A stretch of 64,000 nt of DNA. Origin: Burkholderia ubonensis. Lineage in GTDB: Bacteria > Pseudomonadota > Gammaproteobacteria > Burkholderiales > Burkholderiaceae. The notes beneath the pieces are model-generated. The model worked only from the letters and a program-made list of their open reading frames with translations. It did no database searches and was not told where the DNA came from. The DNA lies in contig NZ_CADFEB010000011.1 in the NCBI RefSeq assembly GCF_902833085.1, positions 310,001 through 374,000 on the forward strand, written 5' to 3'. The translations under genes were made by a program, and so were the position numbers. Numbering within the stretch: position 1 is the stretch's first letter; the number at the start of each line of letters is the position of its first letter. This document shows, piece after piece, positions 49,450 through 61,454 of the stretch.

Positions 49450-49515
49450 GATGTGTCTCCTTGTTTCAGTTGATGAATCGAAGCACCGCGCCAATCGAGC
49501 GGCCGATTCCTCTTC

Positions 49516-49531
49516 AGCAAGGAGCGTGCCG
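49516..49531 (-). promoter_or_regulatory. Sigma-54 promoter before pqqA
   Basis: Reverse strand reads CGGCACGCTCCTTGCT: -24 GG and -12 GC separated by exactly ten bases, matching TGGCAC-N5-TTGCT in all but the first base. The start of transcription would be near 49506, about 57 bases before pqqA. Confidence 0.8.
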
Positions 49532-49688
49532 AAGCCGCGCAAGGCGCGCGCGAACGCTGCGTGCACCCGCCGCCCGGGCATCCGGACGAAATCCTGACGA
49601 ATTGCCGAAACGATCCGCGCGCATGTGCACCTCCATCGCGGCGGTACGACGCGCGGGGACGAGGACGAGTGTTCAATCGTGGAGCACC

Positions 49689-49719
49689 GGTGTTGCAACC
49701 TGACACACCGGGTGTGACA
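49689..49719. promoter_or_regulatory. Putative enhancer (UAS) for the pqq sigma-54 promoter
   Basis: GGTGTTGC (49689-49696) is followed by the near-perfect 19-base palindrome TGACACACCGGGTGTGACA (49701-49719). It is about 180 bases upstream of the pqqA promoter and 40 bases past the end of the activator gene, a normal enhancer distance. GGTGTTGC is the complement of GCAACACC found twice at 55632 and 55664. Confidence 0.6.
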
Positions 49720-49755
49720 GATCGCACGCCCGGCGGCAGCCGGGCGGCCTGCGCG

Positions 49756-51771
49756 TCAGCTTTCGTCGGACGGCTGGCGGCCCGCGTCGGCCGCGGGCAT
49801 CTTGCGGTAGATCGTGTTGCGCGACACGCCGAGCGCGCGCGCCGCCGCCGACACGTTGCCGCCATGCCGCGCCAGTGCGGCGGCGATCGCGGACGCCGCG
49901 ACGTCCTGCAGGCGCGCGTCGGCGGCCGGGAGCGTGTCCGCGGCGCATGGCGCGGCGCACGGTGCGGCAAGCGCGTCGGGCGCCGCCTGCGCGTCGCCGC
50001 CGCGCAGGTCGTCGAAGAAGTCGTCCGGCAGATGCTCGCGCCGGATCTCGCCGTCGTCGTCGACCATCGCCGCCGCCGTGCGCAGCAGGTTGGCGAGCTG
50101 GCGGAAATTGCCGGGCCACGTGCAGCGCACGAACAGCGCCATCACGTCCGGCGCGACGGTGAGCGGCGCTTGCCCGGCGCCCGCGATCGCTTCCCGCTGC
50201 AGCATCTTCTGCACGACGACCGCGAGATCCGTGCGGTCGCGCAGCGGCGGCAGGCGCACCACGAGGCCGTTCAGCCGGTAATAGAGATCCTCGCGGAAGC
50301 GGTTCTGCGCGATCATGTCGCGCAGGTCGCGGTGCGTCGCGCAGATGATCGAGATGTCGACGGCGATCGTCTTCGTCGAGCCGAGCGGGTTGACGAGGCG
50401 CTCCTGCAGCACGCGCAGCAGCCGCACCTGCAGCGGATACGGCATGTCGCCGATCTCGTCGAGGAACAGCGTGCCGCCGTTCGCCTGCAGCAGCTTGCCG
50501 ACCGCGCCCTTGCGGCGCGCGCCGGTGAACGCGCCCTCCTCGTAGCCGAACAGCTCGGATTCGATCAGCGTCTCCGGAATCGATGCGCAGTTGACCGCGA
50601 CGAACGGGCCGTCGCGCCGCGGCGAATCGTTGTGGATCGCCTGCGCGAGCAGTTCCTTGCCGGTGCCGGTCTCGCCGGTGATCAGGATCGGAATGTCCTT
50701 GCCGATCACCTTGCGCACCTTCGCGATCACCGACGCGACCTGCGGATCGCCGGTGTCGAGATAGCCGAGCCGCGACAGGCCCGCCGGGTTGCCCGCCGCC
50801 GGCGCGGTGCATGCGCGCGCGGCCGGCGCGCCCGCGTCATGGACGTCGGTCGGCCGGCTGCCCTCGGCCAGCGTCGCGCGCCGGAAGTGCACGCGCGCGC
50901 ATACCACCGCGCCGTTGACGAGATTCAGCATCAGGCGCTGGTCGGGGCTCGCGCGCATGCGGTCGATCAGTTGCGCGGGCGTGATGTCGAACAGCGACGA
51001 CAGCGTGTGCGCGCGCAGCGCGGCGAGCGGCATCCCGAGCTGGAACTGCGCGCTGCGGTTCGCGGACAGGAAGCGGCCGTCGGCCGTGAACGCGACGATC
51101 CCCTCCATCAGCGTGCCGAGAAACTCGGGGCGGCCATGGAACGACACCTGCAGCGTCTCCTGAAACGTCGTCGTAAACAGGTGATTCTCGATCATCTGCA
51201 CCGACATCTTCGCGAGCGCCATCGTGTGCTGGTGATAGCTGCGGTGGTCGCCCGTCACGTCGAGCACGCCGATCGCGTCGCCGTACGGGTCGAGGATCGG
51301 CACGCTCGAACAGGTCAGGAAGCGGTTCGCGGCCAGGAAATGCTGGTCGCCGTGGACGACCATCGGGCACAGCTCGGCGAGCGCCGTGCCGATCGCGTTG
51401 GTGCCCTGCCGGTTCTCCGCCCAGTTCGCGCCCGGGCGCAGCGCGACCTTTTCCGCGCGGCGCAGGAAGTCGTCGTCGCCGATCGAATGCAGGATCAGCC
51501 CTTGCGCGTCGGTCAGCACGATCATGCTCTGCGTGTTCACGATCTGCTCGTGCAGCGTCTCCATCACCGGCATCGCGTGCACGCACAGCACGCGGTTCTG
51601 CTCGCGCTTCAGCACGAGCGCCGCATTCGACAGCACGTCGTAATCGGGGCGGGCCGACACCTGCAGACCGAACGTCTCGGACCGCTCGTGGGCTTTCTGG
51701 ATCGACGGCGCGGGCCAGCCAGCGGGACGCGCGGCCGGTGACCCGGCCGCCTGAGGTACGTCATCGCGCAT
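49756..51771 (-). CDS. Sigma-54-dependent activator, AcoR-like (GAF-PAS-AAA+-Fis HTH)
   Basis: A 671-residue enhancer-binding protein. The N-terminal half is sensory: a GAF-like domain (about 70-200, WAENRQGTNAIGTALAELCP and VHGDQHFLAANRFLTCSSVP as in AcoR) then a PAS-like domain (about 215-300). The central AAA+ domain has Walker A GETGTGKE, ELFGYEEGAFTGARRKG (the GAFTGA sigma-54 contact) and FLDEIGDMPYPLQVRLLRVL. The Fis-type HTH NVSAAARALGVSRNTIYRKM ends it. AcoR-type proteins respond to acetoin or alcohols and aldehydes. It is in the same direction as pqqA and is the obvious candidate to act at the four sigma-54 promoters here. Confidence 0.88.
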   Translation of the reverse strand: MRDDVPQAAGSPAARPAGWPAPSIQKAHERSETFGLQVSARPDYDVLSNAALVLKREQNRVLCVHAMPVMETLHEQIVNTQSMIVLTDAQGLILHSIGDDDFLRRAEKVALRPGANWAENRQGTNAIGTALAELCPMVVHGDQHFLAANRFLTCSSVPILDPYGDAIGVLDVTGDHRSYHQHTMALAKMSVQMIENHLFTTTFQETLQVSFHGRPEFLGTLMEGIVAFTADGRFLSANRSAQFQLGMPLAALRAHTLSSLFDITPAQLIDRMRASPDQRLMLNLVNGAVVCARVHFRRATLAEGSRPTDVHDAGAPAARACTAPAAGNPAGLSRLGYLDTGDPQVASVIAKVRKVIGKDIPILITGETGTGKELLAQAIHNDSPRRDGPFVAVNCASIPETLIESELFGYEEGAFTGARRKGAVGKLLQANGGTLFLDEIGDMPYPLQVRLLRVLQERLVNPLGSTKTIAVDISIICATHRDLRDMIAQNRFREDLYYRLNGLVVRLPPLRDRTDLAVVVQKMLQREAIAGAGQAPLTVAPDVMALFVRCTWPGNFRQLANLLRTAAAMVDDDGEIRREHLPDDFFDDLRGGDAQAAPDALAAPCAAPCAADTLPAADARLQDVAASAIAAALARHGGNVSAAARALGVSRNTIYRKMPAADAGRQPSDES

Positions 51772-61176: not shown

Positions 61177-61249
61177 CGCAGCCGTGCGCGCCGTCGTCCG
61201 AACGCGACCCGCGTCGGTCGACCGCCGGTCCTCGCTGCCCCACCCCGGC

Positions 61250-61268
61250 TGTTGAGGGCTGCAACAGC
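61250..61268. promoter_or_regulatory. Putative enhancer before acsA
   Basis: TGTTG (61250-61254) and CAACA (61262-61266) form an inverted repeat within TGTTGAGGGCTGCAACAGC, about 130 bases before the acsA sigma-54 promoter. GCAACAGC shares seven of eight bases with the GCAACACC words at 55632 and 55664. Confidence 0.5.
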
Positions 61269-61397
61269 GTGTGCTGCATTTCTGAACGATGTTTCGCATC
61301 GCTACTCAATCCGCGGCACCGTTCGCGCGATCCGGTCGGTCGAATCGGACGCTGCCGCGGCGACTTCCGCCGAACGTGCGCAGCGATCACCGATCGC

Positions 61398-61413
61398 TGG
61401 CATGCATGTTGCG
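61398..61413 (+). promoter_or_regulatory. Sigma-54 promoter before acsA
   Basis: TGGCATGCATGTTGCG: GG-N10-GC with TGGCA at -24 and TTGC at -12. Transcription would start near 61424, about 30 bases before the translation start. Confidence 0.8.
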
Positions 61414-61454
61414 TTTTATTTCGTAAACGCAGTTCCACAGATATGGAGACATCC

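Follow-up and report, generated by a model that had tools for sequence, protein, structure and literature searches.

Whether a bacterium may place the synthesis of a cofactor, a receptor in its outer membrane, the enzyme that uses the cofactor and the activation of the acetate to be formed under a single switch is the question raised by a stretch of 64,000 nucleotides from Burkholderia ubonensis (assembly GCF_902833085.1, contig NZ_CADFEB010000011.1, positions 310,001 to 374,000; hereafter the window, in whose numbering all coordinates are given). It holds genes for the synthesis of pyrroloquinoline quinone (PQQ), a TonB-dependent receptor, a quinoprotein alcohol dehydrogenase and AcsA, an acetate-CoA ligase. 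The DNA itself suggests, with high confidence, that these belong to one alcohol-oxidation regulon, in which a GAF-type activator would act through paired enhancers on sigma-54 promoters at the pqq-tonB-exbBD genes, the receptor, the dehydrogenase and acsA.

An initial annotation had placed four sigma-54 promoters before these genes, with TTGC at -12 in three of them. All four were located exactly where it had put them and their sequences read: each has the GG-N10-GC spacing, with YGGCAY at -24 and TTGC at -12, the receptor site having TCGC instead. The observation is confirmed, on stronger grounds than it was given; what had been missed is a fifth site, 5′ of the activator gene.

49516..49531, reverse strand: sigma-54 promoter P1, of pqqA (CGGCACGCTCCTTGCT), supported by the matrix and conserved in relatives
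55550..55565, reverse strand: sigma-54 promoter P2, of the receptor (TGGCATGGTTCTCGCT)
55758..55773, forward strand: sigma-54 promoter P3, of the dehydrogenase (TGGCATGCGACTTGCG)
61398..61413, forward strand: sigma-54 promoter P4, of acsA (TGGCATGCATGTTGCG)
51825..51840, reverse strand: fifth sigma-54 site, 5′ of the activator gene (TGGCCCGATGCTTGCT)

The claim that each promoter stands upstream of its gene holds once two start coordinates are amended: acsA likely begins at the TTG at 61455, and the receptor promoter is upstream of its gene because the likely start of the latter is 55490 and not 55583. Counted from 12 bp past the GC, the leaders would be of about 56 bases for pqqA, 49 for the receptor (from 55490), 80 for the dehydrogenase and 31 for acsA (from the TTG 61455).

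A ranking by weight matrix had been proposed as a check. With an approximate sigma-54 matrix run over both strands, the four sites rank 1, 2, 3 and 5 among the sigma-54-like sites of the window, rank 4 being the fifth site, and 0.03-0.24 equal or better sites are expected per 12 kb, an estimate for which 400 kb of this genome served as the sample. In the whole genome (7.77 Mb, with two rpoN genes found) YGGCAYN5TTGC has 120 matches, and its reversed control 54; about 0.18 would be expected in 12 kb versus 3 seen (Poisson P ~0.001, calculated by hand).

The promoters of pqqA, of the receptor/dehydrogenase pair and of acsA also have a word in common, TGTTGCA-N7-ACA, found by comparing the upstream regions by eye.

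49691..49707, forward strand: enhancer word for pqq (TGTTGCAACCTGACACA), at a distance of 168 bp from the -24 element
49670..49686, reverse strand: weaker partner word at pqq, with 2 mismatches (TGCTCCACGATTGAACA), 21 bp from the first word
55621..55637, reverse strand: enhancer word of the divergent receptor/dehydrogenase pair (TGTTGCCAAACATGACA)
55653..55669, reverse strand: second enhancer word of the same pair (TGTTGCATTCAGGTACA), 32 bp away from the other word
61250..61266, reverse strand: enhancer word of acsA (TGTTGCAGCCCTCAACA)
61272..61288, forward strand: weaker partner word at acsA, with 2 mismatches (TGCTGCATTTCTGAACG), 22 bp from the first word

In its strict form the word has four matches in the genome, three of them at these regions, and its reversed control has none; for the looser TGTTGCN8RCA there are 63 matches, against 26 for its reversed control. 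A sigma-54 site scoring at least 10 lies 40-260 bp away from 4 of the 6 looser sites in the window versus 1 of 59 readings outside it, the outside scan covering the 57 loci that hold the remaining TGTTGCN8RCA sites, flanks included. Thus, within this genome, the enhancer is nearly exclusive to the cluster. The fourth strict match (L083), within an apparent coding frame, and the sole outside pair of enhancer and sigma-54 site (L121), atypical and lying beside and within unrelated frames, were both judged by eye to be chance occurrences. The receptor and dehydrogenase genes are divergent, and one enhancer pair between them would serve both. Among relatives with two words, the best two are 30-33 bp apart, i.e. 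three helical turns, at 70 of 75 dehydrogenase loci, and 21-22 bp apart, i.e. two helical turns, at 28 of 29 pqq and 12 of 12 acsA loci.

Conservation in relatives is much stronger evidence than any count of sites. The relatives were the best 80 of 239 loci, labelled Burkholderia, Paraburkholderia or Caballeronia, except for one metagenome-assembled genome labelled Ralstonia. A copy was scored as keeping both signals when a promoter scoring at least 12.4 had, 40-260 bp upstream of it, an enhancer with no more than one mismatch; matches beginning past residue 30 (the dehydrogenase being exempt) or with little upstream DNA were omitted, leaving 79 of 80 rows for the dehydrogenase, 38 of 39 for pqqB (the dropped one, L017, showed no site in a separate look) and 15 of 16 for acsA. 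Both signals are kept in 77 of the 79 dehydrogenase copies, in 36 of the 38 of linked pqq and in 12 of the 15 of acsA; in the control, 400 kb of the window's own genome, all 19 promoter-like sites lack an enhancer. For the receptor, 11 copies were scored under this rule, and a looser one allowing up to two enhancer mismatches covered 36 of 40 (four truncated matches omitted), of which 27 have both signals. Several Paraburkholderia loci place the receptor gene a few kb away from the dehydrogenase; there it carries a CGGCATCGATGTTGCT of its own, together with an enhancer-like word. When the upstream regions of 81 dehydrogenase genes were aligned, the two enhancers, the -24/-12 element and the ribosome site stood out as the main conserved blocks.

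A chance origin of the four sites in GC-rich DNA, which the frequency of GG-N10-GC cores, the 120 genomic matches and the failure of all four to fit the stricter TGGCAYN5TTGCW might suggest, is scarcely credible and was rejected: it is contradicted by the joint conservation of promoter and enhancer, besides the enhancer pairs, the rank in the window and the low expectation, and the initial annotation was right to discount it.

Which protein would bind the shared enhancers is suggested by the gene next to the pqq operon.

49756..51771, reverse strand: sigma-54 activator, AcoR/BmoR-like, with a GAF domain, an AAA+ domain with GAFTGA and a Fis-type helix-turn-helix

The three domains were assigned by Pfam and GAFTGA was seen in the sequence; some relatives carry the source name acetoin/glycerol regulator, and the class was assigned from these features. 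Its closest named relatives among those scored are from Burkholderia ubonensis (97-98%). Of the 53 loci that span 21.6 kb or more, 49 have the gene, and in 37 of 38 loci it lies immediately upstream of pqqAB. A different AcoR-type paralogue could in principle act at these genuine promoters: AcoR-like activators are abundant (at least 8000, as all 8000 candidates scored matched), and in 4 of the 53 loci the dehydrogenase has no activator gene, its one-mismatch enhancer words still being there. This is, however, very unlikely given how regularly the activator gene accompanies the dehydrogenase and pqqAB, and how nearly the strict enhancer is limited to this cluster. A single sigma-54 regulon under the local activator, as first proposed, is supported independently by the paired enhancer, by conservation at separate promoters and by the presence of the activator gene in most loci.

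The activator's own sigma-54 site is found at 64 of 69 loci. In the window, an enhancer word was sought up to 260 bp from this fifth site and none was found, the best candidate having 3 mismatches; the activator gene may be self-driven via distant enhancers, or driven by another activator. Between this site and the start codon lies an inverted repeat, CCGG-N6-9-CCGG (51792-51806, reverse strand), which 52 of 69 sequences have, that of the window included.

Several observations weigh against a single regulon of this composition. The 80 loci are akin to each other and, hence, not independent. The stricter TGGCAYN5TTGCW has 12 matches in the genome (reversed control, 10) and none in the cluster, so that the sites are good rather than perfect. 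The dehydrogenase lacks the enhancer at L056 and L064; the pqq failures are L065, just below the score, and L074; those of acsA are L006, whose enhancer lies outside the range, as well as L027 and L047, the last only 42% identical; and 9 of the 36 receptors miss one or both signals. In L032, L035, L037, L039 and L042 the receptor itself has no site; in these loci a site scoring 12.9 precedes a tonB-like gene, with enhancer-like words nearby (in L032 alone were tonB, exbB and exbD made out by eye, beside the receptor; four further loci gave exbD-like matches). An enhancer accompanies the activator's own promoter in only 4 of 69 loci, and acs copies elsewhere in the genomes sometimes hold an enhancer-like word without a promoter (exact in B. 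pseudomultivorans, with one mismatch in others). The receptor reaches 122.7 bits with the NCBIfam model of PqqU, NF041535, the cut-off of which is 1200 bits. As to the literature, neither PQQ nor alcohol dehydrogenase comes up in a term search of the main text of three transcriptome studies, which deal with sigma-54, NtrC or nitrogen limitation (PMC5979394, PMC5491218, PMC5748707). Finally, 19 pqqB copies elsewhere, 59-65% identical and from 18 of 19 genomes picked because their locus had no pqq (one gave no match, and the L028 genome was left out), carry neither signal, with a best promoter score of 10.2 and at least 2 mismatches in the enhancer. These distant copies were thus rejected as further members of the regulon, and the coupling of PQQ synthesis to the switch belongs to the linked operon; the pqq and acsA links are confined to some lineages.

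The genes downstream of the four promoters, and one next to the dehydrogenase, are listed here.

49375..49449, reverse strand: pqqA, 24 amino acids, named from the peptide
48387..49310, reverse strand: pqqB, named by position and sequence, without family search
47665..48390, reverse strand: pqqC, of which no further copy was found in the genome
47387..47668, reverse strand: pqqD
46249..47388, reverse strand: pqqE
45460..46200, reverse strand: tonB, in line behind pqqE
44703..45446, reverse strand: exbB
44269..44706, reverse strand: exbD
53160..55490, reverse strand: TonB-dependent receptor, with PqqU/YncD nearest by profile
55864..57585, forward strand: PQQ alcohol dehydrogenase, with the metal motif WDYDGVN
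57661..58869, forward strand: MoxJ-like periplasmic binding domain fused to cytochrome c, the MoxJ match being weak and below cut-off
61455..63437, forward strand: acsA, acetate-CoA ligase, from the probable TTG start

From their arrangement, pqqABCDE, tonB, exbB and exbD would form one transcript. A large membrane-type PQQ-dehydrogenase-like frame elsewhere in the genome (G000:C3:247977-249857, L266) scores under its family cut-off; with a single pqq operon in the genome it would depend on this one, if PQQ-using.

The dehydrogenase exceeds the cut-off of the methanol/ethanol family TIGR03075 (564.7 versus 480.05 bits), and its next relative in the same genome is 33% identical, none being close. 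The second Asp of its WDYDGVN motif lies two residues beyond the catalytic one, and the DYD motif is present in 80 of 80 loci. The corresponding motif is WDFDGVN in 6zcv/6zcw, which we take to be the lanthanide enzyme PedH, and WDFSGNN in ExaA (1flg), which we take to be a calcium enzyme. The extra Asp of the motif marks lanthanide use, and the dehydrogenase is predicted to be lanthanide-dependent. No aldehyde dehydrogenase is among the cluster genes that were named (no search for one was made elsewhere), in keeping, as we infer, with direct oxidation to the acid. Between the dehydrogenase genes and acsA lies an RpoD-like sigma-70 gene (59290-61176, forward strand; regions 1.1 to 4), 38% and 34% identical to the other two RpoD-like genes of the genome and 51-79% identical between species, i.e. 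much less conserved than the dehydrogenase.

Uptake, one of the functions named by the initial annotation, is sustained in part. With a profile of 15 relatives, YncD/PqqU comes first at ~1e-27, followed by BtuB at 1.8e-14, in a comparison with no unrelated receptor as control; the best-matching solved receptors are 6v81 and 9c4o; and tonB-exbB-exbD stands behind pqqE. On the other side is the low score with the PqqU model: NF041535 is the best equivalog model for this receptor, behind two broad subfamily models. Being far below that cut-off, yet nearest to PqqU by profile, the receptor is called PqqU-like only. The PqqU/YncD of Escherichia coli, the nearest solved receptor by profile, differs in that the receptor here falls under the equivalog cut-off; its host is not known to make PQQ. 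An alternative is that the receptor imports a lanthanide chelate and not PQQ, the regulon then being a system for the uptake and use of rare earths. The DYD motif in all loci and the TonB-ExbBD encoded alongside suit this reading, as does a single-sequence search, which lists CntO, a receptor for metal-metallophore complexes, first, weakly, and PqqU not at all; moreover, LutH is described as a lanthanide importer of a methylotroph in PMC12997753. The 15-sequence profile, in a comparison that included no LutH sequence, points instead to YncD/PqqU, and import of a lanthanide chelate is considered unlikely. Recovery of PQQ by the receptor, with its own TonB-ExbBD, is probable from the sequence comparison. 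An alpha/beta hydrolase gene, proline-iminopeptidase-like (51950-53095, forward strand), lies between the activator and receptor genes in many, not all, relatives.

AcsA exceeds the TIGR02188 cut-off (974.1 versus 724.95 bits), and the genome has a second acs copy, 99% identical (G000:C13:18400-20370, L203). Pairs were compared in this genome and 7 others of 16 searched; of the rest, G029 (fragments) and G032 (second match 53%) were excluded, 6 genomes had one match and one had none at cut-off. The DNA identity within genomes is 99.1 (here), 99.2, 98.4 and 99.1% in four genomes, 91.8% in B. pseudomultivorans and 72.8-78.6% in three more distant ones, versus 90.5-96.8% when this locus is compared between species. 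The other copy has no sigma-54 site in the first five genomes. As copies near-identical within four genomes have diverged between species, gene conversion with promoters kept apart is the likely explanation. Seven of 16 acsA matches reach a contig end (L004, L006, L007, L035, L037, L039, L042), as expected for a repeat.

Taken together, the GAF-type activator (49756-51771) would sense an alcohol or its product, bind the paired TGTTGC-N8-ACA enhancers and drive sigma-54 polymerase at pqqABCDE-tonB-exbB-exbD, the receptor, the dehydrogenase and the dedicated acsA copy. Oxidation of the alcohol by the dehydrogenase would take place in the periplasm and probably run as far as acetate, with the fused cytochrome accepting the electrons; the receptor and its own TonB-ExbBD would probably recover PQQ, and AcsA would convert acetate to acetyl-CoA. 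Of this, the sequence itself gives the promoter and enhancer words with their conservation, the identities of the genes and the DYD motif, whereas the pairing of activator and enhancer, the extent of the operon, the inducer, the metal, the substrate of the receptor and oxidation straight to acetate are inferred. The fuller picture of a complete rare-earth alcohol programme under one activator, with PQQ both made and recovered, lanthanide-dependent oxidation to the acid and a gene-converted acs with a distinct promoter, is put forward tentatively, as a possibility rather closer to doubt than to belief.

A search of titles and abstract openings, with the subscription literature mostly outside its scope, found no publication on this regulon. 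Parts of it have counterparts elsewhere. In Azospirillum brasilense Sp7 the PQQ alcohol dehydrogenase gene exaA is controlled via sigma-54, there with a LuxR-type regulator (PMC6115532, PMC12826043), whereas here a GAF-AAA+-Fis activator and shared paired enhancers would also cover pqq, tonB-exbBD, the receptor and acsA. BmoR of Thauera butanivorans is an alcohol-responsive sigma-54 activator working from a distant enhancer, 193 bp upstream in Pbmo (PMC8899819), a likeness in the described mode of action; its target, however, is an alkane monooxygenase. In Ralstonia solanacearum GMI1000, growth on ethanol needs rpoN1, and the aldehyde dehydrogenase ExaC is a predicted target of an AcoR-like activator; PQQ genes, a receptor and acs are not named in the passages concerned (PMC4676750). 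The ped cluster of Pseudomonas putida KT2440 (PedE/PedH, PedS2-PedR2) is alike in having PQQ ethanol dehydrogenases, with a lanthanide switch (PMC6115532, PMC12997753), but its regulators are PedR2, of LuxR type, and AgmR, the lone sigma-54 mention found in PMC12997753 being that of CbrB.

The locus would provide a concrete switch for PQQ and for probably lanthanide-dependent alcohol use in a large group of bacteria associated with soil, plants and the clinic, and its defined enhancer lends itself to simple reporter assays. It also suggests the cargo of an orphan TonB receptor, and offers a case of a duplicated enzyme gene whose two copies differ in promoter and have almost the same sequence. 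Furthermore, it predicts that one activator gates all the PQQ made by the cell: if this is true, with a single pqqC, the activator would also decide whether other PQQ enzymes work.

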